A program made the translations under genes and the position numbers. A stretch of 64,000 bases of DNA. Origin: Diphasiastrum complanatum (taxonomy: Eukaryota; Streptophyta; Lycopodiopsida; Lycopodiales; Lycopodiaceae). Location of the stretch: assembly GCA_029204225.1 (NCBI GenBank), contig CM055106.1:19044149-19108148 (forward strand), read 5' to 3'. This document shows positions 10,845-44,057 of the stretch, piece after piece. Within the stretch, counting starts at the first letter, position 1. Each line of letters opens with the position of its first letter. Under the pieces are notes generated by a model. It did no database searches. It saw only the letters and a program-made list of their open reading frames with translations, and was not told where the DNA came from.

Positions 10845-11387
10845 GTGTTTTTACACATGATTTGTGACAGGCAAAAAAGGCAGCACTGCCCTACAAAATG
10901 TCAAAGGTGGCCTAATGGAAAAGTGAGGACACCCTGTAAATCAAATCCTAAGGCATTTGCATTAGGGGATATTAGAACTCAAGGGCCCTTTGTCAAGATG
11001 TTGTTTTTGACTTCGCACACTTTCAACGCCTATGTGTCCCAATGAATGGTGTCCATCTGTGACAAATTGTAACAGTGGTTGATGGACAAAAATTCCCGGC
11101 CAAATTTTTGTGATTTTCAAATATCCCGCCGGGTAGAACAAACAATTGTGATTGGACCGAAGTTACTGCCCAAATACTCTTATGCTACCCGTCATTGTAC
11201 ACTCGAGGTTGATTTGACGTCAATAGTCATGAATTGTGGTTAACTAATCCTTGTAGTTTCTTGTCATTCATAGGTATACCTCTCATTTTCTTCATTCTAT
11301 CTCTTATTTTGGATTGTCATTCTTAGGTTTACCTCGCAATCTCTACATTCTCTCCGTTCTCAGCTTGCGTACTCGTATTTTTGACTA
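10845..11387. other. Upstream region of the unrecognised gene at 11388
   Basis: Short frames only. C/T-rich tracts around 11275-11360 ('tctcattttcttcattctatctctt') lie just before the ATG at 11388 and could be a plant-type pyrimidine-rich leader. No clear TATA box can be assigned. Confidence 0.3.
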
Positions 11388-12052
11388 ATGGCTACACATA
11401 ATCGGAGACCAAGAGGAACCATTGATGCAATCAATATTTGCAATGAAAAAAATGTAGAAGATCAATGGATACCAAAAATATATAAAAAATATCAATGGAT
11501 TTTGATGCATTCCTATGCAAAAGGCTCATTCCGAAAAAAAAAAAGATCGGATAACATATATAGAAACTCTTGGAAAGGTAGGATAATGGATTTTAAAGTA
11601 TCACCTGTGGGTCAATCTATCACAGAAGTTTTAGTTCAGCATGTTTATCTTCATAATGAGCTCAACATTCATGATTTGAATCCAAATGATAGAAGAAAAT
11701 GCAACTGCAAGGTTTTAGATTTAATTTCTTTAGAGTTAGCATTTTCTTTAGATTATATTTTTCTTGAGATGTTTTTGTTGGTTTTGCAGATTTGTATCTA
11801 TCAAATTTCGTTGAATGGCAAACGGTTCAATCGATTGCAGGAAGAATCGATGTCATTCATTCGGATATCGGTATTTTACAATGTAAAGGTCATTCTCCAA
11901 AATCACTTTTAGTGTCAGGAGTTTTTTTTTATGATCACACCTATTTTTTTGATAAAAATGATTTAGTTGGTAGATTAGAGCCATATCCTCTACCAGATTT
12001 TTCGAGTGAGGAATGGATTTCTCCTGATGCATCAATTTTAGAAAGTTTTTGA
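11388..12052 (+). CDS. Unrecognised gene or gene remnant, probably with one intron
   Basis: The first exon opens at ATG 11388 and reads 108 codons of a basic, hydrophilic protein (NRRPRGTID, FRKKKRSDN) to 'CNCK' at 11711. A donor-like AAG|GTTTTA and an acceptor-like TTTTGCAG|AT at 11789 would frame a 78-bp, T-rich intron. Downstream the best frame (11792-12052) reads 86 codons, including 'NFVEWQTVQSIAGRIDVIHS' and 'GRLEPYPLPDFSSEEW', to a TGA at 12050. Splicing 11711 to 11790 gives a phase one base off from this frame, so either the junction differs or a frameshift has occurred. I do not recognise the family. It may form one transcription unit with the ORF at 12188. Confidence 0.4.
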
Positions 12053-12187
12053 TCTAGGCTATATATTGATATTCAGAGTATATTAAAATGTAGCACTTGA
12101 TCAAAGAATAATAGATTAAGTTGGTATCTACCTTTTACTATTTTTGTTGATTTTTTTTCCAAATGCAATGTTTAGAAAACAAAAACA

Positions 12188-12553
12188 ATGTTTATTTGTA
12201 AGGACTCGAGTGCTGAAATAATCGTCGAGTTGTTAAATGATGGTGGGGATACAAAACAAAATCAGCAAGTTGAGTGCAGAGTATGTTACTCATCCATGAC
12301 ATTTAGATATCACATCAAAAAACAAATGCTCACTTTGCTGCTGTATTATAGAAGATGGATTAAATGCAAAAATGTTTGGAAGCCACTTGATCAAGATTTT
12401 GGTATAATCCCTCAAGAGCAACTGCAGATAACAGTGAAAAGAAATGACAACATTCTTGCAATGGTTGAGGTCGAGGAAGATTGGTGTCTCAATCACATTC
12501 GATCAGAACTAGACATGTTGCAATTCGATCTACCTCAACACTATCAATTTTGA
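12188..12553 (+). CDS. Unrecognised 121-codon ORF, possible downstream exon
   Basis: This plus-strand ORF opens with an acidic stretch, continues with a basic helix-like segment (HIKKQMLTLLLYYRRWIKCKNVW), and ends in 'MVEVEEDWCLNHIRSELDML' and 'FDLPQHYQF'. The last part, with alternating charges and an R.ELD..Q.DLP..Y.F pattern, has the look of a small beta-rich fold, but I cannot name it. A GT follows closely after the stop. It sits 135 bp after the preceding ORF on the same strand and may be another exon of that gene. The function is unknown. Confidence 0.4.
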   Translation: MFICKDSSAEIIVELLNDGGDTKQNQQVECRVCYSSMTFRYHIKKQMLTLLLYYRRWIKCKNVWKPLDQDFGIIPQEQLQITVKRNDNILAMVEVEEDWCLNHIRSELDMLQFDLPQHYQF

Positions 12554-12864
12554 TTTAATGGTGTAAAGGTACGTTATGCCATATAAAATAATTCATTTTT
12601 TTCTATTTCTAAGTGAATCAGTTAATATATTAACTAAAACAATTTCTCTTGTGCATGTAAGAGTAAGGCAGGAAGAGCATATAAAATACAAAGATATTGG
12701 AACATCCATCGAAATTAAAGATCCATAGATTATGAACATGGAATTTTGTATTATGTAATATAATTTTTTGTATACATCATTTTTGAAAATATATGAACCA
12801 CTTTTTCTATGAGGCTCTTTCATTTCTATGATCTCCATTTCCATGGTGCAAAACACAATGTAAT

Positions 12865-12962
12865 TGCAACTGGATAATATGAGTATTCGATAGCAAGATT
12901 CATTGTGTCCTGCAGGAAATGCATTATCTCCATTGGGAGATCTTCAGTCACTTGAACTCCAG
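12865..12962 (-). pseudogene. Second copy of the C48-peptidase gene's last exon
   Basis: The minus-strand reading gives 'LPMEIMHFLQDTMNLAIEYSY', matching 'MSPMEIMHFRQDTIKLVIKNSY' in the last exon at 13422-13570. Nucleotide similarity extends through 'aatgcattatctccattggg' and 'ttgcaactggata' (with 'gcaactggatatga' in the other copy). Only this exon can be seen, so it is a duplicated fragment. Conservation of the PMEIMHF reading in both copies marks that frame as the ancestral coding frame. Confidence 0.65.
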
Positions 12963-13009
12963 TGACCACTACAATCAGAGATCGAATCGACGCTTGCCCT
13001 TGTTGAAGT

Positions 13010-13260
13010 CGTGTATATATCAGTTGTATTTTTGGTCTTCATTGCCTTGGTCTATATTGTTTTTGTCTTGGCATATTTGGATATGTTCAGATGATGATCT
13101 GATCAAAGCTTTGCTGCAACAAATCTAAGTGAACTAATGTCACATGTTTGGATTGGTTGTGGCAAAGGTTCGATCAGATCATCATTCTGAACATATCCAA
13201 AAAAGACCATGGTAAAGGCAAGGCAGACCAAGGCTATGAAAAACAAACATGTTGAAAAAC
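13010..13260. repeat. Inverted repeat with hydrophobic coding arms
   Basis: The left arm (about 13010-13126) and right arm (about 13150-13260) are inverted copies; 'ttggatatgttcag' at 13077 pairs with 'ctgaacatatccaa' at 13187-13200. The spacer is only about 24 bp. Read outward-in, each arm encodes a hydrophobic segment (VVFLVFIALVYIVFVLAYLDMF on the plus strand, TCLFFIALVCLAFTMVFFGYV on the minus strand). A transcript would form a long hairpin. This is probably an inverted duplication of a membrane-segment exon. Confidence 0.65.
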
Positions 13261-13883
13261 CGTAGAATTGAAGATGAATGAATCATAACCTGAATTGATA
13301 AGAGAGAAAAAAACAAGTAAGAACAACCATAGAAAAACTATAAATATATTTCTATTAAAATTTTCTGTACATGTGTCTCATCCACATCAAGTGAGATGAA
13401 TATTTAATCAGTATCAACTATCTATGATCTCTAAATCCATTTCTCCAGTTGGAAGTAGCTTGGGTGAAGAACACTTGGCCACTGCAACTGGATATGAATT
13501 TTTGATCACAAGCTTTATGGTGTCCTGCCTGAAGTGCATTATCTCCATTGGGGACATTCGGGCATTTAAACTGAAAAAAAACATAAACACAGTTAAATTT
13601 AATTAATCAAAGATCAGTTAATAGGAATTGGTGAATATGAAAAAAATAAAAACATAGTTAAAAGTTATTAATCGAAGATTACCTCTTCCAGATTTAGAAG
13701 TCCATCTTGTAGTGCAAGCCAATTAAAAAAGTGTTTGGCATTGCATACGGTATACCAACCACAGCTGACAGAATCAACCTGCTGGGAGGACTGCAGAATC
13801 CAAATTTTAACATTATGAGATATCGGCTCAACGCGCAGGATTTTATAATTAAATTTACAATGGAAATAGGCGCGCGTCGAACC

Positions 13884-14705
13884 TGTGCAAAAAGTTCAAA
13901 AAGGACCAAGAGTGGATCCTAATCTGATCCTCAAGAGAGATTGGTTGTCAGATTACTTGATCTATCAATCTACTTAAGATTAAGATCAATCTAGATCAAT
14001 TCTAGACACAAAATCCTAACAAGAACAATCATTAATTGAAGGTAGGTGTACTTTCTGGTTTCACACATGTGAAACACTGTCTGAGTATGGACTCCAACCT
14101 GAAAATCAACTACACATTGATAGAACCTCAAAATAATCAAAACAAATGTAGACAAATGGAGAGAATCACTCAAAATTGCTTCCAAAACCAAGATTGGTGT
14201 CTCACATTGATTATGGCCAAATAAGCCTCTATATATACACTTTTGGAGCTCGAGGTACTGATCATGCATCAGATCTCACATGTGTGATGATGCCTTGTCA
14301 CCATCATACAATGTGACACTTGGACCAAAACTTTCCATTTTGGGCATTTTTGGTCTATTTTCCTTCTATATGGAGATCTTCATGGAAATCTTCTAGAAGC
14401 AAAAACTTACCTACTTCAGCTATTTCCACATGTGTGAGCTATCCTCTACACATGGTATGTGACACCTATTCAAAATATTTGGCTCATGCAATCATTAGAT
14501 TGGTGCCATGTGTCATATCTCTAGAAAACTAGTTTTTGGCCATTTTAGCCACTAGAACTTGAATTAAATCATATGTACAACATATATGATTATGGTACAT
14601 GAAAAGTACACTAGTTTCACACATGGGAACAGGCTCCACACATGTGTGTCTATCCTATATACAAGATTTTTGGCCTCTACCAAGCCTATTTTTGCATTTT
14701 TCACA
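13884..14705 (-). repeat. 3' LTR of CopD
   Basis: It begins (minus strand) TGTGAAAAATGC and ends TTTGCACA. A TATA-like element, TATATATAG on the minus strand, lies at about 14229-14238. The palindromes that are CACACGTGTG in the 5' copy appear here as CACACATGTG (14062-14071) and CACATGTGTG (14277-14286). Confidence 0.95.
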
Positions 14706-14769
14706 CTCCTCAAAAATCTAGCTTGGTAAATCTAGCATAGATCTATCTATAACTCCAAGAGCCAATCTT

Positions 14770-17290
14770 AATTTTATAAATGGATCTTTAGGCAATTCCT
14801 TGGTGAGTATATCAGCAATGCAATCTGATGATGAAACATAAATAGGCTTGATCTCCTTTGCTTGCACTTTCTCCCTCACGAAATGATGTGCAATCTCGAT
14901 GTGCTTTGTTTGAGCATGGAAGACTGGATTGTTTGCAAGTTGTTGAGCTGCTTGATTATCACAATATATTCATGGAATGTCTTCATTCTTGATCACATGT
15001 AGCTCCTCCAAAAGCCTTTTAAGCCAAAGAACCTCCTTCTTTGTTGTTTTCATAGCTTTATATTCGGATTCTGTTGATGAAAGAGAGATGGTATCTTGCT
15101 TTTTGGAAAGCCAAGATATAGCTCCTCCACATAAGAATGTAGCAAATGCACTTATGGATCTTCTATCCATCTTGTCGCTTGCAAAACTTGAGTCCAAATA
15201 TGCTCTCAAACAAATATTAGCCCTTTCATAAACTATGCCAAACTCTTTTGTAGCCGAGATGTACCTTAACACCCTTTTTGCTTGCCAACACAAAAACTAA
15301 GATCTGGTCTAGTGATGGCTAAGTATATCAAGGAACCAATAAGCATTCTATAGGTAGCGATGTCCTCAAAGGATGCTTCATCACTTTCCTTAGAAACTCT
15401 TACACTTACTTCCATAGGAGTTTCAACTCCTTTACAATCAATCATGCCAAATCTTGCTAAGATTGATCTAGCATACTTAGATTGACATATGAAGGTAAAA
15501 TCATTACTTCTAGTGACTTCTATTCCAAGTATAACTTTAAGAAGTCCTAGATCTGCCATCTTAGATTCACTAGACAAGGAAACTTTTACATTCTTGATGC
15601 CATCTAGATCATTTCCATGAGTATAATGTCATCAACATATAAAACTAAGATAATTATCTTTCCATCATTACATCTGTAGTACAATGATGGTTCATAAGAA
15701 CTTACAACAAATCCAATGGAAATAAGGTAGGAATGCAACCTAGAGTACCATGCTCTTGGTGCTTGCTTGAGTCCATAAAGACTCTTCTTCAAGGGACACA
15801 CCTTGTCTTCTTCTCCATCTTTGATGAAGCCCTCAGGTTGGCACATGTATATTTCCTCTTCCAAGAATCCATTCAAGAAAGCATTTTTCACATCAAGTTG
15901 GAAGAGCTCCCATTTGAAAGAAGTTGCAAGACATATGATTAATCTAATGGTCACAAGCTTTGCAATAGGTGCAAAGGTTTCATCATAATCTATGCCTTTG
16001 ACTTGCAAAAAAACTTTTGCTACAAGTCTAGCTTTGTACTTATGAATGGAACCATCTTGATTATATTTCAATCAATATATCCATTTACAAGTAAGAGGCT
16101 TCTTTCCATAAGGTAAATCAACAAGTTTCCAAGTTTGATTTTCCATTAATGCATCAAAATCTACTTGCATAGCTTTCCTCCAATATCGAGACTGATTTGC
16201 TCCTCAAAACTAGTTGGTTCTTCAAGCATAGTAGTCAAGAAAGTATAAGAGTTGAGTAGTTGAGAATCTTCCCTTTGCTCCCCTTTGTCACTATAAGTGA
16301 GCCTTGATGGCTCAATCCTTGTCCTTGTTGATCTTCTTGGCACCCTTGGACTTGGAGTAGGTTCCACTTGGTCTTCATCTTCATGAAGCTCCTCCTCGGC
16401 CATAGCATGATCTTTGACAAGTTGAGTGTTGTTAGAAGTCACCTTTCCTTTGGCTTGGAGAGATTCATCAAAAAATACATCTCCACTAGCAACAAATTTT
16501 TGTAATAGGATCATATCCTATAAGCTTTCTTTCTTTCACTATAACCAACAAAGATGCCTTTGAAAGAAGTGGCATCTTCCTTTTTTCTTGTTTCTAAAGG
16601 AATATGTACATAACAAGTGCTTCCAAAAACTTTCAAATCACTAAGATTTGGCTTTTTGCCAAACAATACTTCATAAGGTGTAAGTCCTTTAATGGCACTA
16701 TTAGTCATTCTATTACAAAGAAAGTTTGCACAAAAAATAGCTTCTCCCCAAAATGAAATAGGAAGAGATGCATCTAATCTCGTAGCTTTAGCACACTCAC
16801 ATAGTGTCTTATTCTTTCTCTCAGCTACTCCATTTTGTTGTGGAGTATATGTACAAGTAAACTCTTTCATCCTATTGGAGATGTACTCCCCTCCATTATC
16901 ACTTCTTAATACTTTCAAGCTAGTATTAAGTTGCTTTTCCACAAGAGTTTTGAACTTTACAAAGGACTCAAAAACTTCAATTTTCTTAGACAAGAGATAA
17001 ACCCAAGAGTATCTTGATTTATCATCAATAACAGTGACATATATAAAAGCTCCACCATTTGATTCATGTGAAAATGAATGAACATCCAAGTGTATAAGGT
17101 CAAGAGGAGAGTCAGATCTTATCAAAGATCTCTTGAATGGAAGCTTATGAGATTTGGAGAGTCCACAAGCTTCACAAAGCTTGCCACACTTGGATATGGT
17201 TTTGGGAAGTCCTCTTGCTAGATCCTTTGTCACCATGGTCTCCATAGCTTTGTAGTTAGGATGGCCTAACCTTTTGTGCCATAATTCCAC
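14770..17290 (-). pseudogene. CopD pol: integrase, reverse transcriptase, RNase H (broken)
   Basis: In minus-strand order: GAG-pre-integrase ELWHKRLGHPN (17290-17258), the CEACGLSKSHK half zinc finger, integrase core with IHLDVHS, VTVIDDKSRYSW and RSDNGGEYISN, then TYTPQQNGVAERKNK after a small deletion. Next come GIFVGYSERKKAYRI, a frameshift at about 16512, and a Ser/Thr/Glu-rich linker. Reverse transcriptase shows KYKARLVAK, LDVKNAFLNG, SLYGLKQAPRAWY and the catalytic VLYVDDIIL (about 15612-15640), then a shift, 'ILGIEVTRSNDFTFICQ' and TRPDLSFCVG. A deletion of roughly 60 bases removes the SQFM..P..HW segment. RNase H follows with LDSSFASDKMDRRSIS, GAISWLSKKQ and STESEYKAM. The reading stops at about 14970, although RNase H motifs (KHIEIAHHFVREKV) continue in the same strand to about 14790. 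The element is not autonomous. Confidence 0.9.
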
Positions 17291-17302
17291 TTGAGTGAGC
17301 TC

Positions 17303-18589
17303 CTACCTTGCCATGTTCACACTTCCAACCATCACATTAGAATCCAATTTGAATAACCTCCCTTGCTTGAAACCACTAGCAATACATTTCTCATCTTTCA
17401 AGATAGAATATGCTCCATGCTTGAAATGTACATCTAATCCACTATCCATAAGTTGTCCTACACTCAACAAGTTCTTTGTAATTGAAGGTACATATAGAAC
17501 ATTGTCTAGATCTACTTTTTTAGATGATCCTAGAAATAAAAGAATGGATCCAACACCTACAATCTCACATTCTTGATCACTTGCAGTGAAGATAAATCTC
17601 TTAGAACTATTGTAAGAAAGTAGATTAGAAAAGTAGTCTTTTTGGTGAGTCATGTGAGAGCTTGTCCCACTATCAATCCACCAAGTGTCTTGATTAGATG
17701 TTTGTGGTGAGGATACCATCAAGGATAGATTGCTTTCTTCCTCCTCCTCAAGCACAAGACTGCCTTGAATTTCCTTCTCTTGGGCATTCTTCTTCTTGTA
17801 GCACTCGGATGCAAAATGTCCTTTTTTTCCACAAAAGAAACACTTTGCCTTCTTCTTGTCCTTATTGCTCTTGCCTTTGAAACTTGATGCTCCATCTTTG
17901 TTCTCCATCTCCATGTCTTGAGTCTTCTTGGATGGAAACTTCTTCTTCTTCTTGCCTTTCAAAGAAAAGTTAGCTTTTTCATCACCATCATTCAAAGATA
18001 AGGAACTCATCCTACTTTTGATATGAAGCATTCTACTCTCCTCACTAACAAGCACACTTTGAAGTTTTTCAATACTAGGAAGTGAATCTTGAATAGCAAA
18101 GGTTTGAACAAGATTGGAATAATCATCTCCTAATCCATTCAAAATGATTTGAACTAATTCATCATCTTTGATTTTATCATCTATAGAAGACAACTCTTTA
18201 TTCAAAGATTTGATCCTAAAGACATAATTTTGGGCACTTTCACTACTTCCTTTCATGCTTTGAAGGATTTGATTCCTAAGCATGAGTATCCTTAAAGTCT
18301 TCTTGGATCCATAAATGGCTTTTAATGAATCCCATGCCTCTTTGGATGTGGTACAAGATGAGATTTCTTTCAAAAGTTCATTACTTACATTCATTTTTAT
18401 GCAATGTAATGCAACTCTACATCTCTTTTTGTACTTAACCAACTCAACTCCTCCTTGAGGTTCTACTTCCACGTCAAGTACTATGTCATAAAGATCATGA
18501 AGTACAAGCAAAGACTCCATTCGAACTATCCAAGTAGCATAATTAGTGGATGTAAGTCTTTCACTAGCTTCAAGCAAAAAACCACCCAT
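17303..18589 (-). pseudogene. CopD gag-protease ORF (428 codons, ended by one TAG)
   Basis: The ORF starts with 'MGGFLLEASERLTSTNYATW', the usual copia gag opening (L.G.NY..W). It continues through the gag core 'KEAWDSLKAIYGSK' and the leucine-rich part 'DELVQIILNGLGDDY', then a Lys-rich stretch. The CCHC zinc knuckle is CFFCGKKGHFASEC at about residues 252-265. The protease motif is WWIDSGTSSHM at about 305-315, and 'NVLYVPSITKNLLSVGQL' follows. The TAG at 17303-17305 lies in frame with the integrase part that begins at 17290, so a single nonsense codon separates gag-protease from pol. This half is the best preserved part of the element. Confidence 0.92.
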
Positions 18590-19181
18590 TATGCCATTTT
18601 TGAATGTGAAAAAGCACTAGAAACTCTTATGGTTTCTCTAAGAGGTATGAACCTAAAGTCTTCTAGAAATTTAGAAAGCTTATAGACTCAATCTTATCAC
18701 TCATGAACCAATCTAGAATGATGGAAATTTAGATTCTAGTCTCAAACTTGCAAAATCACTCCTTAATCTATGATTTTTAGCAATTTCTCTCTTCAACCTC
18801 AACATACACTCAAAAAAAATTAGAGAAGATCAATTAGTGCACCTAATTCAAGCTTAAATTTTTGGCTGATCTAATCCAAGAACTAATCAAGGGATTAGAT
18901 TCACTATAGAAAATGCTTGATTTTGCACCAGAAGTCACTCAAATTGGGTATGTGAGTCAAATTATATAAATTTTTGAAATTTCTCAGTCAAAACCAGATC
19001 TGTACGGCCTCACACGTGTGAAAAGAGTTCCTACAGCCCACAACAAGATCTGGACCAAAAATTTTGAGGATAGCTATCAAATCCAACTCACTACACAAAA
19101 ATTGACTAGTTTCCAAAAAACTGCTAATTTTGGCTTTGATTTGGATTAACCCTATCAATTTCAACAAAACCTTTTGTACTA
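18590..19181 (-). other. CopD untranslated leader
   Basis: This stretch between the primer site and the gag start has no conserved ORF. It contains CACACGTGTG at 19011-19020, so the palindrome is not limited to the LTR. Confidence 0.7.
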
Positions 19182-19194
19182 GGCTCTGAAACCA
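19182..19194 (-). promoter_or_regulatory. CopD primer-binding site
   Basis: The minus strand reads TGGTTTCAGAGCC directly after the LTR end ...TTTGCACA. Plant copia elements use TGGTATCAGAGC, matching the 3' end of initiator Met-tRNA; one base differs here. Confidence 0.85.
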
Positions 19195-20016
19195 TGTGCA
19201 AAAAGTACAAAAAGGACCAAGAGTGGATCCTAATCTAATCCTCATAAGGGATTGGTTGTCAGATTACTTGATCTATCAATCTACTTGAGATTAAGATCAA
19301 TCTAGATCAATTCCAGACACAAAATCCTAACAAAAACAATCATTAATTGAAGGTAGGTGTACTTTCTGGTTTCACACGTGTGAAACATTGTCTGAGTATG
19401 GACTCCAACCTGAAAATCAAGTACACATTGATAGAATCTCAAAACAATCAAAACAAATGTAGACAAATGGAGAGAATCACTCAAAATTGCTTCCAAAACC
19501 AAGATTGGTGTCTCACATTGATTATGGCCAAATAAGCCTCTATATATACACTTTTGGAGCTCGAGGTACTGATCATGCAGCAGATCTCACACGTGTGAGG
19601 ATGCCTTGTCACCATCATGCAATTTGACACTTGGATCAAAACTTTCCATTTTGGGCATTTTTGGTCTATTTTTCTACTATATGGAGATCTTCATGGAAAT
19701 CTTCTAGAAGCAAAAACTTGCCTACTTCAGCTATTTCCACATGTGTGAGCTGTCCTCTACACATGGGATGTGACACCTATTCAAAATATTTGGCTCATGC
19801 AATCATTAGATTGGTGCCATGTGTCATATCTCCAGAAAACTAGTTTTTAGCCATTTTAGCCACTAGAACTTGAATTAAATCATATGTACAACATATATGA
19901 TTATGGTACATGAAAAGTACACTAGTTTCACACATGGGAACAGGCTCCACACACATGTGTCTATCCTATATACAAGATTTTTGGCCTCTACCAAGCTTAT
20001 TTTTGCATTTTTCACA
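19195..20016 (-). repeat. 5' LTR of CopD, with promoter motifs
   Basis: This 822-bp LTR is the transcription-start copy for the minus-strand element. The TATA-like TATATATAG (minus strand) is at 19541-19549. CACACGTGTG lies at 19373-19382 inside an 18-bp perfect palindrome gtttcacacgtgtgaaac, and again at 19588-19597. The region upstream of the TATA box (higher coordinates) is about 470 bp. Confidence 0.95.
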
Positions 20017-21170
20017 GAACCGATATGCAAAAAATATTGTTTGAATATTGGATAAGCGCACACGTTATGAAAAGAAACCAAACAATAACTACAAGGGTGC
20101 ATCGAACCAATTTTACCTCTGCATCAACAATTTTTAGCTTTGTATATGCTTTTGCATTTGGTACTAGAAAGAGTTCCAGTATTTTTTGGATATGGCTCTT
20201 GGCAATTTTGTGTATGTGTGTGTAATAGAGTTCATCTTTAAACAAATTGGATTACACACACCCTCATCATTGACGTATAAGGATAACAAATATAAGCTCC
20301 AATGATCACTGCAATCAGAAAACAATAAATTTATGAGAATCAATTTTAAAACAAAATTCATATGAAAAATTCAACATAATAAAATCTGAAAAAAAGACAC
20401 TTACTTTGTTATGTATGGCAACATGAGAATTGGAGTCCCCAGTCTGACGTATTGGAACATACCATCGTGCAGCCTTTTGAAATCAGGGAAATCAAATGCA
20501 ACCATGAATTGAAGGGGAAACAATGCTACATCTATAAACAATGGGGTCTAGAAAAACTCCATCTAGTACTGAATGGCCCCACCTCCTACATTATCAACTA
20601 GCATTTTGTCCCTACTTTCTAATTCATCTGTATCTAAATTAGAAAGGGGGAGACCAGCATTGGTCTTCGACATCCTAAAACTGTATCGAGGACCTAAAAC
20701 TTTAAGATACGTGTTTAACAATTGGTCATATTGTACATATTAAGGAGTATTTACAAAGACAAGTGCAGGGGGTGACAGAAGTAATACAGATAGACCAGAA
20801 AAAGAATTGTCATTAAAAATTGATTCTACCTTTACATTAACAAATTCATTTAAATCATTTTCTAGAACAGGTGGAGGGGAACTAATATTTATGGAGGTAG
20901 GAAGAAGAGATTTAGGAGGAGGAGATTTATTAGGTGAGGAGGATTTAGGAGGAGAAGATAAAGATGGAGTTCTGGGAGAAAGAGAAGGAGACTTAGGAGG
21001 AGAATTGGGACGAGAATGCCTAGAAGAAAGAATCTCATCCAGAGGAGATGGCTTGGAAAAATCCCTCGCTTTATTTGGAGGGTCAAGAGACCTCCTCTTC
21101 TTTGAAACACTCCCGCTCTGTATACGAATAACATGCCGAGATAGTTGAGATTGCTTTCGTTTTCTCCTCT

Positions 21171-22100
21171 CTGAAATGATCTAGCTCATTGTTAAACGAT
21201 CACATTTAACTTCATTTTCCGCAAGACTTTTTTTGAATCATTTCATGCTAATAGTTTTGTTGACATTTAGCTTTTTGATAGCACATTCTTGCTTGTAATT
21301 CAGTCTTTTTGATACCACATTCTTGCTTGTAATTCAAAGTATGGCTAGTACACAGAAGCTACTTTTGAAATCTAGAAAAAAAAGGGTGAAATCACCTATC
21401 TACCCTACAGATGGGTGATTCGAACTCTTTTTTTGGATTTTAAAAGCAACTTCTTTGTACTAATTCTACTTTACAATATCTCAGAAGAGAGACTAGAACA
21501 ACCCATATGTCGGGGAACTTGGATGTATTTTTCTCTACTGAACCATCAACTTTTCAATCAACGTGTAGCTAGGTCTACATTTTTGCTACAAACCTCATGA
21601 GAAACTAACGCTCTAACTCAATGTTAGAAGATCACATTTTGGCTCATTTTCTACAAGATTTTTTTGATCAATTCATGCTAATAGTTTTGTTGAGCTTTAT
21701 AATAGCACATTCTTGCTTGCAATTTATTCATTTGAGATTTTTGAAAGTATGATTAATATAAAGAAGTTCCTTCTGAATTAGCCCTTTCTTGTGAATTTGT
21801 AGCAACTCAATGCCATTCTTAGTATTGATGGCAATCTACCTCCAAAAAACTTCAATTTTCAGCACTTTGCATGAGTAACTTTAGGTGCACGTATATATCT
21901 CTATAGGACTCCAATTTAATTTTTTTTATAAACATGTTTCTATGGTCATAAAAGGATTTTTGAAATTAGATAGCCAACAAAAGGGTTGTAAAAAGCACCT
22001 CCAAAAGAGCCACAACTTTTAACTAGTACAACAAGAGGTTTTTCCTCAGACCACATAATTATAACTCGAACATTGTTCAAGTTAATAGTACAAAAAGAAG
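21171..22100. other. Upstream flank of the C48 gene, no recognisable gene
   Basis: A roughly 140-bp segment is duplicated: 'gatcaca.ttt...cattttc' with 'attcatgctaatagttttgttga' occurs at about 21199-21265 and again at about 21629-21685, each followed by 'atagcacattcttgcttg'. Within the first copy 'ttgcttgtaattca' also recurs. No domain-bearing ORF is seen. An upstream exon of the C48 gene could be hidden here. Confidence 0.45.
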
Positions 22101-22641
22101 TTGTTTTTGAGACCATATGAACGATATAACATTGAGAAGCAGAAAGAAGAGGCCCTTTCTTGGGCATTAGTTTTGAAGAAAGGCACCAAACCAAGTGCCC
22201 CCATCTACTCAGTTACTTCAGCCACCGTTTCAGAAGAGAAATCTCGAGACCAAAAAGCCCACAACATATGTCTACAAAGGCTTCACAGAATACCCCTAAC
22301 TCGAGCACTGCTCGAGTTGGACACCAAATTCTTTTATAGTGAGGTGAGAAACCATAGTCGAGTCATGCAAAGATGGTGTTTAAGCTTGTCTTCCATGGGA
22401 CCATCTCCGGTTGACATGATTCCAAATTTTGAAAACTCTGTTGTCTTCTATTAGTCAGCCAAAAGATCCATTTTCAATTGATTCTGACAATGAAAAAGTT
22501 GATGTTAATACTGGTATACAAGATGTTTTTCATGAAGTTTTTCCTAGTGTGGTCCACGATGAGCAAATTAATTCAGTTGATCCAATTATGAATAGAGACC
22601 AAGACCTTGACAAAAATGAAGAGCCTCAAGAAGGTATATGA
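22101..22641 (+). other. Unrecognised open region (two overlapping frames)
   Basis: Frames at 22101-22454 (117 codons) and 22429-22641 (70 codons) overlap. The second encodes a very acidic stretch (DPFSIDSDNEKVD, NRDQDLDKNEEPQEG). Neither matches a family I know. A 'gcactgctcgagttggacacc' block contains the inverted motif ctcgagcactgctcgag. The region may be exonic, but no splice model is compelling. Confidence 0.3.
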
Positions 22642-23369
22642 GGTTGTTATGCTACAATTATAATGTAGAAGTAATAACTATGATACAATATTTTTATATG
22701 CATTTCCAGTTTGTTCTTTTGTACATAATGTCATCTATTCAAGTCGTTGCTATTAAAAATATACTGTTGTTGGGTTTTATTTTGTGAAGAAGCCGTTGAT
22801 GTTTTTATGCCACTTTTGAATCGGGATTGTTTGACGTTGATCCGAACTCGAGAAGCGTCGGTCGTTTTAGTACTTTCACAAGTCTTGGTTGTGAACAGTA
22901 ACATTTTAGATTTTAGAACAAATTTTCTAATAGTAACATTTCACATTTTAGAACAATAAATTATTGATATATAGCATAATTGCAAGTTTTTTTAGCAAAC
23001 GTTGTAATAGAAAAATAAATTCGAGAGAGAGAGAAAGATGGAGAGAGCATGTTATATCGAAAAAGACAAAGAGATAGAGCAATGTACTGTCATGCTTGTA
23101 ATGTGTAGATTTGATTCAATCGATAGTTATATATTGCAATTAAAAACAAAATTGTATATATAAAGGGAGTGCATATATTAAGAAAATAACACTTGAATAT
23201 ACATACCATTAGAGGAGTTCTAAATTCCAAAAAGACCCTTTGTAAAGATTCTTTTTAAATTTTTTCTCAAATTTTTCTTACACATGGACCAATCAAAACA
23301 CTCAAATTTGAAATCTATGTAACGTAACTTTTTGAGTCACATTTTGATTCCACACTAAAAATGGCATAA

Positions 23370-23495
23370 CTTTTTAGTGGTAAGTCCGAATTTAGCGCAG
23401 TTTGGTGCATTGGAAAGCGCTCAACAAGGGCTTTCCATTGATATGTTACGTGACATACTTCTGAGCTATGATTAAAAAGGTATGGCAAGTCAAAA
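23370..23495. repeat. Dispersed copy related to the foldback at 0.85-1.25 kb
   Basis: The blocks 'ttggtgcattggaaagcgctcaacaagggctttccattgatat', then 'tgagctatgattaaaaaggtatggcaagtcaaaagt' follow the order of the foldback's left arm ('atggtgccattagaaagcactcaacaagagctttt', 'gagctattgtttgttatagctagtcaaagt'). Only one arm is seen here. Confidence 0.6.
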
Positions 23496-23786
23496 GTATT
23501 AGTGTTATAATATTTTAATAATATAAAAGACATCTTGCACGAATTCTTAAAGGGTCTTTTTGGAGCCCAAAACTCCCCTAATGAATGCATGGTTTTTTAT
23601 GTCAATAATGCCACATTTGGAGTGCATTGAGTTCTTTTTTTGAACATTTAGAAATTTGAGTTGAGCACAATGTGTGTATGAACAGAACATTCAAGCAAGC
23701 ATTGTCGCGCTGATTTGTTGTTGGTAATGAAAACGAACTTTTGGCATTGGATCAATCTTCCTTTATTAATATATTAAGACCAAGAC

Positions 23787-30325: not shown

Positions 30326-30913
30326 TGTGTTTCAGGTTATGAAGGAGGAAATCAGATCTATCAATGATTTGGTGAAGATATCAAGTCTAGAGCATGCTAG
30401 AGAGGAATTCTACACCAAAATCGGATTTTTTGCTTTTGTAGATTGGATCTTTTGTAGATCAAAACACTAAATAGGTCAATATACTTGTTCAATTCCGTTT
30501 TTTGAATTCACATGCTGGATTTGGCCAATTTTTGGATCATTGGTTCAGCCTAAGTGGTGGCTTATAGATTGCATATCAAATTTTCAGCATTTGCATGTAG
30601 ATTTGGAATAGTCAATTTTTTGTGATTTTGTCAAAACCCTAATTTTGATTGGATCTCTAGATAGTGAGGTTGCTGGACTTCATTTGAGTGTTTTTCAATC
30701 TTAGGAAGTGGCAAAAGTCATTAGATTGAGGATAGATCATAGGTTGATCAAGATTGCATGATTCTATCTGTTGATTTGCTTGGATAAGTGCTAGAAGAGA
30801 ATTTGTGAGATAGTTTCAAATCTTGGTGATTTCTTTTGAAAGCATTTGTTGTTGTTCAAAGGAGTGCTTTGTGCATTGAAACAGGTTGAAAGAGAAGATC
30901 GGGTCATTGCTAC
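30326..30913 (+). other. CopG leader between primer site and gag
   Basis: This 588-bp leader has no ORF of note. A diverged complement of this leader is recognisable at 37081-37659, which identifies the remnant there as the same family. Confidence 0.8.
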
Positions 30914-32557
30914 ATGGCAACCTCAATTGGAGTCATGCTGGAAGCCAATGATAGGCTTACCTCAAGTAACTATTCATTATGGAAAGTGAGGATGGAGTCA
31001 CTTCTTGAGATGAATGATGTTTTGGATATTGTTGTAGGTTTGGAGGAGAGACCAGCAACACAACGAGATCAATTGAGGTATGACAAGAGGGCCAAGAAGG
31101 CTCTACACATGATAAAGATGAATGTTACCAATGAACTTATCAAGGAAGTTGGTAAGTGCACATCATTTTTGGAAGCTTGGAATTCATTGAAGAAGATTTA
31201 TGAATCCAAGTCTACTTCTAGAGTGTTGACTCTAAGAAGGCAAATTTTTTCTTGTTTGCAAAAGAATGAAAAAAGTTCAAGTACTTTTGTTTTGAGAATG
31301 AAAGCATTGAATGATGAGTTAGCTTGCATAGATAAAAGAATTAAGGAAGGAGAGCTTATTCAAGTGATTCTTAATGGCTTGTTGGATTCTCATGCTAACA
31401 TTGTTCAAAGTACTGCTATTCAAAAGACTTTGCCAAGTTTGATGGATCTTCAAGAGATCTTGATCAATGAGGAATATAGGCTTCAAGCAAGAGGTGGATC
31501 TACATCGACACTTCAAGAGGATGCTATGTTCACAAAGGGCAAATTCAAGGGCAAAACCAAAAGCAAGTGGTCTAAAGGGCAAGATCAAGTGGATGCTTCT
31601 TCAAGTGGCAAAAAGAAGGATAGATCAAAGCTCAAGTGCTTCTATTGTGGCATCAAAGGACACTTTGCAAGTGAGTGCTACAAGAAGAAGAGAGATCAAG
31701 GAGACAAGCAAGGTAATCTTACTCTTGATGAGGATGGTTTGGATGTGCAAGATGCAAATGATGATGCTTTTGTGATGTCTTCATGTATGCTTGCTAATGA
31801 TGGAGATCTAGATCCTTGGTGGATTGATGGTGGAGCAAGTAATGACAAGCATGTTTGTGAGTCTTGTGCTTTGTCTAAGTCACATAGACTACCTTATACC
31901 AGATCTATTTCTAGATCTACAAAGCCTTTTCAACTTGTACATTCAGATATTCATGGATTTACTACAATTAGCAATAGTGGAGCTAAGATGTATGTAACAT
32001 TCATTGATGATTCTAGTAGATTTTGTTGGATCTATCTACTAAAGAGCAAGGATGAAGTGTATGATGTCTTTGTCAAGTTCAAGAATGCAAGGGAGAACCA
32101 ATGTTCTGCAAAGATCAAGTGCTTGAGAGGTGACAATGGTGGTGAGTACATATCTAACAAGTTCAAGGCCTTTTGTGATGAGCATGGGATCAAGAGGGAG
32201 TATACAACATCAAGGACCCCACAACAAAATGGAGTGGCTGAAAGGAAGAATAGAACTTTATGTGAAAGTGCTAAAGCTATGAGGTTAAGTGCTAATCTTG
32301 ACAAACCATTTTGGGATCAAGCTTTGTTGTGTGCCAATTTCTTGTGCAATAGGTGGCCGAGTGCTATTTTGTATGGAAGGACACCTTTCGAGATGCTATT
32401 CAAGAGGAGGCCGAGTGTCAACTTTCTAAGAACCTTTGGATGCACATGCTATGTCAACATTACTCTTGATAATAGGACCAAGGAGGATCCATCTTCAAGA
32501 AGAGGTATTTTTGTTGGATATAGTGAGGTGAGTAAAGGTTTACATTCCTTCTACTAA
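30914..32557 (+). pseudogene. CopG gag-integrase frame (547 codons) lacking protease
   Basis: ATG 30914 opens a copia gag ('MLEANDRLTSSNYSLWKVRM'), with the CCHC knuckle CFYCGIKGHFASEC at about residues 242-255. The protease starts as WWIDGGASN (DSG changed to DGG, about 302-310) and is then joined in frame to 'DKHVCESCALSKSHRLPYTR', the C-C half of the integrase zinc finger. About 150 residues (most of protease and the GAG-pre-integrase region) are missing without loss of frame. The integrase core is intact in its motifs: HSDIHGF, VTFIDDSSRFCW, RGDNGGEYISN (RSD changed to RGD), and TPQQNGVAERKNRT. The frame ends at 32557 just after FVGYSEVSKG, because about 5 bases of the KAYRVYIP codons are lost. 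Confidence 0.9.
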
Positions 32558-32561
32558 CAAA

Positions 32562-34196
32562 GTGATTGTTGGTAGAGATGTCATTTTTTATGAGGGAAAC
32601 ATTCCAAAGGTGTCTTCAAGCATGATTGATGGTAAAGTAGATGGTTCTAACATTCTTGATGTAGATGAGAAGGATTCTACTTTGGATGGTGGTGATGATG
32701 GACCTTCATCAAGTCAAAAGCCAAGGAGAACATCAAGAGAAAGACAAGTACCTTCAAGGCTCACATATGATCAAAAGGGTAAGCAAGTAGTTTCTGGAAA
32801 TTATGTTGCTTTCCTAACCTCTTTGGATGATCCTACAAGTGTAGATCAGGCAAGGAAAGAAGAGGAGTGGATCCAAGCAATGGATCTTGAGTATCAAGCT
32901 CTTATGAAGAATGAAACATGGAGATTAGTGGAGTTGCCTAAGGACAAGAAAGCTATTGGATGCAAATGGATCTTCAAGGTGAAGACAAACCAAGATGGAT
33001 CTATCAACAAGTACAAGGCAAGGTTAGTGGCAAAAGGATATGCTCAACAACAAGGAATTGACTATGATGAGACCTTTGCACCCGTGGCAAAGATGGTAAG
33101 CATTCGAGCCATCATTTCACTTGCTACACTTTATGGATGGGATCTATGGCAAATGGACATTTCAAATGCATTCTTGAATGGTGATCTTGAGGAGGAAGTA
33201 AACATGGAGCAACCCGAGAGCTACATCTCATCAACAAAGCCAAATCATGTGTGTCTTCTACAAAAGAGTTTGTATGGCCTTAATCAAGCACCAAGGAGTT
33301 GGTATGCTAAGCTTAACACTTTTTTACTCTCTCAAGGCTTTGTTATGAGTGAGTATGATCATTCACTTTATTTTAGGTTTGCTGGAAATGATGTTACCAT
33401 CTTGCTAATCTATGTGGATGATATCATCTTGAGTGGCGGAGACAATCAAGATGTGGAGGATATCAAGAATGCTCTTAAGAAGGAGTTTGAGGTGCATGAT
33501 CTTGGTAATTTGCATTACATTTTAGGAATAGAAGTCATTAGATCTTCTCAATCTACTTTCATTTGTCAAGAGAAGTATGCTAATTCTATTCTAGAAAGAT
33601 TTCATATGGTAGATGCAAAAGCTATTGATACACCTATGGAGTCTCATGTAAAGCTTACTATAAGAGGTAATGAAAGATCCTTCAAGGACATTACTCTCTA
33701 TAGAAAGCTAGTTGGTTCACTCATCTATCTAACCATTACTAGACCTGATCTAAGCTATTGTGTTGGAAGATTGAGTCAATTCATGCAAGATCCTAGTGAG
33801 GAGCATTGGAGGCTAGGAAAGCGAGTTTTGAGGTACATCATTGGAACTCAAGATTTTGGCATATTGTATGAGGGATCATCACCTAATCTTTTTGGATTTT
33901 CAGATTCGGACTATGCTGGAGATGTAATGGATAGGAAATCCATTAGTTCTTATTGTATTTTCATAGGTGATGGAGCTATATCATGGCTGTCAAAGAAACA
34001 AGCCACTATCTCATTGTCATCTAGTGAGGCCGAGTACAAAGCTCTTACACATTGCACAAAGGAGATAGTATGGATCAAAAGGATGATCAAGGATCTTCAC
34101 TTGCTAGATTTTTCAGAAAGCCCAATCATCTTTTTTGGGAGCGAGTCATTGCAAAGGAGGTGGAGCTTCAACTTGTGTCTTCAAGGGAATGTGTAG
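32562..34196 (+). pseudogene. CopG reverse transcriptase-RNase H frame (544 codons, truncated)
   Basis: The frame continues from the integrase tail ('VIVGRDVIFYEG' region), a Ser/Asp-rich linker and 'RRTSRERQVPSRLTY'. Reverse transcriptase contains EEWIQAMDLEYQAL, IGCKWIFKVKTNQDG, KYKARLVAKGYAQQQGIDYDETFAPV, MDISNAFLNGDLEEEV, SLYGLNQAPRSWY and the active site LLIYVDDIILSGGD (about 33410-33440). Then follow YILGIEVIRSSQSTF, TRPDLSYCVGRLSQFMQDP and RNase H with SDSDYAGDVMDRKSIS, GAISWLSKKQ and SSSEAEYKAL. At about 34140 a deletion of roughly 100 bases removes the RNase H segment with the last acidic/His residues. The tail resumes in another frame. Confidence 0.92.
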
Positions 34197-42699: not shown

Positions 42700-43250
42700 T
42701 TTCTTGAGGCTCGCTTTCTTTTTGCCTTCATCAGCTGTTTCGTAGAAAGAGACAATCAGCGAGAGAAAAGAGAGTGCAGGTACACTCTATCGTAGTGGGT
42801 TCCAACTAGGTTAGGAATTATCTCCAATACTTGCTTCCGAGAGAGAAAGAGGAGGAAGCGAGAGAGAAAGAAAGAGAGAGGGAGAGTATCTAGACACATA
42901 CATACTCTCTGTCTCTCGAAGGCAGCCGAGAAAGAAGAAGAAAAGTAATGGAGCCCTTAGCGATATTGGTCCACAGGTCACTCCATCTATCTTCTCCTAC
43001 TCCTATGTTCTAGACCCACCACTTTGTTCTCTTCTCTTTTTGTGTCTCCACCTCTGATCAGGATCTTACTTTCATCCCACTGGTTGTCATTATTCTGCCT
43101 GCCTCTCATCCACTGCAGTGATTGATTTCAGGCTGTGCTCTCCCTCTTTCTGGCTTTCAATCCATCTATATCGCATGCTGCTGTCCGTCCATTGGTGATC
43201 ATAGAATTTGCTGCTGCTCCCATGCAACAGGAAAAGACAGATTATTCAGA
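42700..43250 (+). promoter_or_regulatory. Promoter/5' leader of the AHL gene, GA-rich
   Basis: GA-rich tracts occur at 42750-42775 and 42839-42893. An upstream ORF of 21 codons starts at ATG 42948 and ends at TAG 43011. A donor-like CCACAG|GTCACT (about 42976) and an acceptor-like GATTTCAG|GC (43130) could frame a leader intron of about 155 bp. GA-rich leaders are targets of plant BBR/BPC factors. Which ATG is used depends on this splicing. No clear TATA box was found. Confidence 0.5.
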
Positions 43251-44057
43251 ATGTTTATGGGTAGTTTGAACGGAGGTGTGCAACTCAATCACTCGCACCA
43301 GCTGCCCAATTCCCTCTCACTGCAGCCAAGAGACATACACAACTCTGAGGACGAGCATAGTGGGAGCAGCGGCGCAGCGCAAGGAAATATACAAAACGCC
43401 GGGAAGGATTCATCACAAATGATGGGGGAAGCAGGAGAGATCGTGCGGAAACCAAGAGGCCGACCTCCGGGATCAAAAAATAAGCCCAAACCGCCCATCA
43501 TTATTACAAGAGACAGTGGGAATGCTATGAGACCTCATGTGTTGGAGATCGCGGGAGGCTGCGATGTGGGTGAGACTTTAGCAGCGTTTGCAAGGCGAAG
43601 ACAACGTGGGTTGTGCGTGCTAGGAGGTAGTGGCACTGTAGCAAATGTTACTCTTCGGCAGCTTGCTGCTCCAGGATCTACAGTTACTTTCCATGGCAGA
43701 TTTGAGATCTTGTCTCTGTCTGGGGCTTTTTTGCCACCTCCTGCACCTGTGGCTGTAGCCGGGCTTACGGTGGCATTGGCAGGCTCACAACCGGGACAGG
43801 TTTTGGGAGGAAGTGTGGTGGGTGTTTTGATGGCAGCCAGCCCAGTGCTGGTAATAGCTGCCTCCTTTGTTGGAGCGACTTACGATCGTCTTCCTCTGGA
43901 AGATGAAGATCCAAATCAACTGGCAGCTCTCTCCAACTCTGCTCCCCAGAATGATCCCTGCAGCATCGCGCTTTACAACATGTCCCAGAACCCGTTGAAT
44001 CAGCTGCCCCCCGATGTGCTTGCCCAGTGGGTATCAGGAAACCGGCAACCATTTTGA
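43251..44057 (+). CDS. AHL protein (AT-hook motif nuclear-localized, PPC/DUF296 domain)
   Basis: This 268-residue nuclear DNA-binding protein is the only intact host gene recognised. Members bind AT-rich DNA and act in chromatin and hormone-growth control in plants. A type-I AT-hook lies at residues 66-82: [17 protein letters not shown]. The PPC domain runs from about 93 to 215, opening [13 protein letters not shown] and carrying the diagnostic GRFEIL at 149-154, which mediates AHL trimer formation. The C-terminus ends [15 protein letters not shown], as in clade-A AHLs. The N-terminus is Ser/Asn/Gln rich. No intron is needed, which fits clade A. I start at ATG 43251; the open frame extends upstream but lacks an earlier in-frame ATG. 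A second ATG two codons later (43257) is possible. GC content is clearly above that of the flanks. Confidence 0.95.

Follow-up and report, generated by a model that had tools for sequence, protein, structure and literature searches.

A truncated locus of Diphasiastrum complanatum belongs to a dispersed repeat family whose other copies join a histone H3 fold to a C48-like domain

The C48-like locus in the window (the whole stretch of 64,000 nucleotides of Diphasiastrum complanatum DNA analyzed here) is a dead copy, truncated at its 5' end, of a multi-gene repeat family dispersed through the genome; one of its C48 introns was later invaded by a copia element. Read together, the copies give one frame composed of a MARTKQTAR-like tail, a Pro-rich stretch, an H3 fold, a basic Pro/Ser-rich linker, and a C48 (Ulp1-like) domain, the last of which is spread over further exons. 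As the explanation of the locus we favor, and consider probable on balance, a dead truncated copy of a multi-gene H3-C48 repeat family that is presumably a DNA transposon and that would act against host silencing; the combination of H3 with a SUMO-protease-like domain suggests that the elements carry their own chromatin-tampering protein.

A reading made from the letters of the window alone (the sequence-only reading) had described a C48 peptidase gene with a copia element in one intron. Its exon anatomy and motifs stand: the exons with the His motif and the Gln/Cys motif lie on the minus strand where they had been drawn (table 1), the splice sites flanking the insert are as described with matching phases, and the intron measures 188 bp without the element. 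The gene is not intact, as exon 1 has three in-frame stops in the C48 frame, does not open with a start codon, and is the counterpart of the middle part of a longer protein that other copies encode; in exon 2, the frame changes inside a CA repeat (approximately 20185–20260, within the C48 coding exon) whose length differs among copies and shifts the frame; and exon 4 is frameshifted when set against the three copies in which this exon was read. Homology starts at 21175 in the window, and all five compared copies run on upstream. By tblastn, the H3 sequence and two companion genes (A and B) are absent from the window and a third (gene D) is retained. Pfam gave no C48 match (PF02902) for the window exons, either separately or read through together, the outcome that the sequence-only reading had named as refuting it; a sister family described below passes this test. 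The basic Pro/Ser-rich part had been taken for the N terminus of the protein; because the frame of other copies runs upstream into the H3 fold, its basic start (RRKRKQ...) is instead the linker that follows the fold in an H3-C48 fusion.

Table 1. Positions of the features of the C48-like locus and its surroundings, numbered from the first letter of the window
Feature	Position	Strand	Remarks
3' end of H3-C48 repeat unit	10960..10980	-	Terminal sequence, inward on + strand, CATTAGGGGATATTAGAACTC
Gene D, two pieces	11385..12376	+	Opposite strand; 89% and 82% identical to L037 and L038 (tblastn)
Last-C48-exon fragment, duplicated	12844..12936	-	82% DNA repeat of 13492-13552; tblastn 3e-6
Imperfect palindrome, ~220 bp	13028..13250	.	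Many copies match query 631-853 on the opposite strand
Exon 4	13417..13570	-	C-terminal C48 region; frameshifted in the window; tblastn
Exon 3	13683..13790	-	Gln/Cys motif QQVDSVSCGW (SSQQVDSVSCGWYTV); tblastn
Target duplication GGTTC, second copy	13879..13883	.	
Copia LTR retrotransposon, nested, 6,133 bp	13884..20016	-	LTRs 19195-20016 and 13884-14705; gag-pol split among several frames
Target duplication GGTTC, first copy	20017..20021	.	
Exon 2	20117..20308	-	His motif NDHWSLY; frame slip in CA repeat
Exon 1 remnant	20405..21175	-	Holds the Pro/Ser linker and the N half of the C48 region, with 3 in-frame stops; lacks the H3 half
Breakpoint	21175	.	The window and its duplicate stop here; other copies reach the H3 fold upstream
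Separate MITE-like repeat, 378 bp	23206..23583	-	Terminal sequence CATTAGGGGAGTT, similar to that of the element; without target duplication

Searches of the genome (1.74 Gb) with the DNA of the two halves of the window gene returned 1,375 and 1,417 first-look candidates, and all 40 candidates scored per half, the window and its duplicate counted in, gave a main match at 86–100%. Copies of the window family are spread over many contigs. The duplicate is a near-identical second copy of window positions 12800–23583 at C15:19968937–19979721, on the same contig at a distance of approximately 912 kb; it has the same spacing and therefore includes the copia element, and it represents either a recent segmental duplication or an assembly haplotig. 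A normal host gene for a SUMO protease, interrupted by the copia element, which is the picture given by the exons, splice sites, and intron as first drawn, is rejected by this copy number and is extremely improbable in view of the common 3' end described later, the H3 fusion, and the stops in the window copy; moreover, the genome has another C48 gene (L001) that does pass Pfam. The suggestion, also made in the sequence-only reading, of a transposon-borne C48 peptidase is supported by copy number, the sharp common 3' end, empty copia sites, and a C48 match in a sister family.

The nested insert is a full LTR element with its own target duplication on both sides, as had been read. Its LTRs are 96.5% identical over 822 aligned columns (21 transitions, 8 transversions; K2P 0.036), and Pfam analysis ORF by ORF identified copia gag, integrase, and RVT_2 (reverse transcriptase) domains; the LTRs, the 5-bp duplication, and the copia gag and RVT_2 domains assign it to Ty1/copia. 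The corresponding site is empty and uninterrupted in four of five other copies of the repeat, and the alignment of the fifth (L034) is split by a gap there.

C48 exon 1 fetched 15 copies, two of which are the window and its duplicate, both without H3. H3 sequence lies upstream in 12 of the other 13, the exception being L010. In these other copies, the H3 fold continues in the same reading frame into the linker and the N-terminal part of the C48 domain, and the core histone fold, absent from the window, scores above the Pfam cut-off (PF00125; 1.2e-17 in L007/L036 and 2.9e-8 in L006/L035). The best PDB matches of the window-family fold are H3-type chains (5e-16); AlphaFold modeled the H3 domain too poorly (pLDDT 57.6) for the model to be used. 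Every window-family copy that was read is broken, some more than others, and a frame open from the tail to the C48 domain was found in none of them. The longest view of the fusion comes from L007, in which 181 aa covering the whole fold and the start of the linker are open, together with L017 and L012, in which 280 aa and 305 aa, respectively, are open from within the fold across the linker and on into the N part of C48. In copies that were fetched without the tail as bait, the frame begins with MARTKQIARG (L038), MARTKQTTRV (L015), MAQTKQTTRV (L014), MACTKQTARG (L008), and MARTKARG (L006).

The assignment of the window locus to C48 is based on its motifs and on a sister family, represented by L067/L072, that starts with MARTKQTARL and has the H3 fold, broken by a frame change, followed by an RRKRKQ linker. 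The joined C48 exons of this sister family match PF02902 (9.2e-6, 26.1 bits against a cut-off of 20.7), as they do without exon 4 (1.3e-5); a control joined in the wrong order scored 2.2e-4, above the cut-off, with the His part alone aligned, and the C48 pieces taken singly gave no Pfam score. The C48 regions of the two families are 36% identical with invariant H, W, Q, C, and G residues. Joined copies of the window family did not match PF02902. Across a five-row alignment, the catalytic His (H3), Gln (Q67), and Cys (C74) are invariant and all three are present in the window, and the position of the catalytic Asp (KMNS) is occupied by Asn in four rows and Lys in one. Because of this Asn, protease activity is doubtful, and the window-family domain, which we call C48-like, may lack it. 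Taken alone, the direct evidence for the window family is weak: single-sequence PDB searches with this domain gave SENP8 as the best match at a nonsignificant E value (0.15–0.17), with FGF receptor and toxin-type chains ranked below SENP8 in one of them. A profile search with one alignment (A1) gave no match; a profile-profile comparison with L001 was weak (E 0.021 and then 0.0048, probability 2 and 7%), and a further search placed Ulp1 fourth of five matches (E 0.76). L001, which we take to be DEN1/SENP8-like, shares the HWSL and QQxxxxCG motifs and a similar C-terminal stretch with the repeat domain; unlike the latter, it has the Asp (YDS), a single open frame of 257 aa, and a PF02902 match of its own (1.5e-9).

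The H3 half is part of a larger group. Searching the genome for histones returned 6,325 first-look candidates, of which 150 were scored with 153 matches. Thirteen rows at approximately 164 bits are cellular H3 genes (L039–L051), whereas the remaining rows listed score at most 109.5 bits and are divergent; at least 23 of these, counted by eye, have stop-free frames of at least 300 aa. Among the seven divergent rows read (L052–L058), L053 encodes 417 aa with a MARTKQTARD start, Ser/Arg-, Gln-, and Pro-rich stretches, and an H3 fold that ends in LARRLRRERN and matches PDB H3 without gaps (2.6e-26). Overall, the folds of the repeat families are 36–55% identical to host H3 and 33–66% identical to each other, and the group comprises at least five H3 types.

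In the noncanonical loci read, the tail lacks lysine 9. Exact MARTKQTAR starts occur 514 times genome-wide (reversed control, 0). As the tail served as bait, the loss of K9, and not the conservation of the tail, counts as evidence in this set. In the eight loci read, chosen from 100 listed, position 9 is L, P, V, L, A, L, L, and D, and an H3 fold follows within 501 bp in five of them; in five more noncanonical loci it is D, D, E, D, and G. Lysine 9 is thus found in 0 of 13 noncanonical loci read versus 13 of 13 cellular H3 loci, and the full H3 tail, ARTKQTARKSTGG, is not present: the first eight residues are kept and K9 is gone in all 13 noncanonical loci. Like plant CENH3 and H3 variants, the repeat proteins have an H3 fold with a diverged loop 1 and a replaced tail; unlike them, they are repeat-borne (more than 1,000 candidates), have long Pro-rich inserts, and are fused to C48, and, unlike CENH3, their best PDB matches are H3-type chains and not CENP-A. 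It is possible, though we hold it as a tentative view, that a plant DNA-transposon lineage carries its own H3 variants as a core gene, with ARTKQTAR kept, K9 discarded, and a C48 fusion in some families.

The H3 fold might instead serve targeting or tethering, in that it would let the proteins of the element join nucleosomes, perhaps centromeric ones, to select or enter insertion sites while C48 acts on integration partners. This reading, which we regard as rather unlikely, draws on a seven-row alignment including host H3, in which a loop-1 Arg and the set H..KRVT....D are invariant. These residues, which have roles in DNA contact and H3-H3' contact, correspond to R83, H113, R116, and D123; L065, outside the alignment, has W at the R116 position. 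It also draws on a four-residue loop-1 insertion in one family (L069/L070; read in L069) and on the concentration of 51 of the first 100 MARTKQTAR sites listed (of 514) at C3:18.5–21.1 Mb; it is opposed by the dispersal of window-family copies over many contigs and by the lack of a match for the one host CENH3 pattern tried. The C3 sites are dense and on both strands, L069 and L070 were sampled from among them and are repeat-type H3, and a centromere or a nested array might explain the cluster.

Ka/Ks ratios, computed skipping stop codons and gaps, are mildly below 1 for the H3 fold (0.70, bootstrap 0.52–0.93; 14 copies) and lower, over 15 rows, for the C48 N part (0.38, 0.22–0.64) and the His exon (0.36, 0.11–0.97), and are 0.68 for the linker (14 copies) and 0.60 for the stretch before the C48 N part (15 rows), with intervals that include 1 (0.46–1.1 and 0.32–1.43, respectively). 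Two companion genes are common to two H3 families, B at 2e-15 and D at 5e-12 (BLASTP against its homolog in the H3 family element of L053), both as single-comparison E values; the pieces of gene D scanned had no Pfam match. These data bear on passive capture, according to which transposons took up H3 and C48 fragments that hitch-hike without function. There is precedent in Pseudocercospora fijiensis, whose hAT elements contain 784 H3-like copies, inactivated except for the original gene (PMC6710886), and both the broken state of the window-family copies read and the linker interval fit such an origin. We nevertheless judge passive capture unlikely, given the ratios below 1 for the H3 fold and C48 N part, the retention of the fold in at least five diverged families, the companion genes that travel with H3, and the long stop-free frames of the noncanonical rows.

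The extent of the unit was defined by comparing the window with five 10-kb copies (L034–L038). Homology ends at 10960 with the common terminal sequence CCCCTAATG and differing flanks in the window, L034, L035, L036, and L038; in L037 it breaks off earlier, at 11093. The 5' end was not found within 18 kb of the L035 copy. Position 23583 was rejected as the 5' end, as 23206–23583 is a separate MITE. This MITE-like repeat has inverted ends, CATTAGRGGAGTT, and 4,015 first-look candidates, and every one of the 40 that were scored matches at 94–100%; none of five copies showed a target duplication, and none was found for the H3-C48 element. Pfam recognized no transposase among nine proteins, including a window ORF from outside the element, and in the element pieces scanned there was no hAT domain. 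Because of its copy number and its sharp 3' end with a terminal sequence like that of abundant MITE-like repeats, we infer that the H3-C48 unit is a DNA transposon. Some large DNA viruses have histones and Ulp1-like proteases, and an endogenous viral element, with histone and protease as viral genes, would also accommodate genes A, B, and D. A viral origin is very unlikely, as a scan of viral contigs with a single H3 of the group, that of L069, yielded no relative, no viral family appeared among the Pfam matches of the same nine proteins, and the terminal sequence resembles the short MITE-like repeats.

Plant transposons with C48 domains are known from the Kaonashi/KIU and VANC genes of non-TIR MULEs (Vandal) in Arabidopsis, melon, rice, and grapevine, and VANC causes hypomethylation of related elements (PMC13317346). 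The D. complanatum family resembles these in placing an Ulp1/C48 domain in what is presumably a multi-gene plant DNA transposon and differs from them in its histone, which the cited passages do not mention, and in the Asn at the position of the C48 Asp. Pfam found no MULE transposase in the element pieces scanned, and a target duplication of about 9 bp was not seen. In Dothideomycete fungi (Pseudocercospora, Pyrenophora), hAT elements with a hAT domain and 8-bp duplications carry H3 derived from a captured host transcript (PMC6710886). As there, H3-coding sequence is found in high-copy elements, here presumed to be DNA transposons; unlike there, the genome is that of a plant, H3 is fused to C48, the families are diverged and lack K9, and no target duplication was found. 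The fungal case is independent, and the pairing of H3 with transposons may therefore recur. Among the papers listed in the literature searched, which covered few subscription journals and not bioRxiv, none reports a plant transposon-borne H3 or an H3-C48 fusion.

The mechanism in our preferred reading, the element histone with its C48 domain as an anti-silencing factor, is in itself a candidate that we would put somewhat short of an even chance. The element histone would pair with host H4 and enter nucleosomes on or near the element. Because the tail has lost K9 while keeping K4, such nucleosomes could not take the H3K9 mark of silent chromatin, and the fused C48 domain would bind or remove SUMO on chromatin proteins there; resistance to K9 silencing and action on SUMO are suggested by the lost K9, the kept K4, and the identity of the domain. 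The outcome would be analogous to that of VANC proteins for Vandal elements. If a transposon lineage with its own H3 variants is real, it would be, within the literature searched, the first transposon known to escape silencing by building or poisoning chromatin with a histone of its own. Transposon counters to host silencing are mostly unknown, and a K9-less H3 fusion offers a direct test of nucleosome alteration. Many repeat-borne H3-like sequences could also confuse the annotation of histones and CENH3 in such genomes.

Three other features of the window may be mentioned. The palindrome next to the C48 exons is a possible source of hairpin RNA. An ORF at 43122–44057 (+) has an AT-hook-like stretch and a PCC domain (PF03479, 4.9e-21) and is probably an AHL-type host gene. 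At 30890–34196 (+) lies a further copia element whose gag-pol is open in two long frames.
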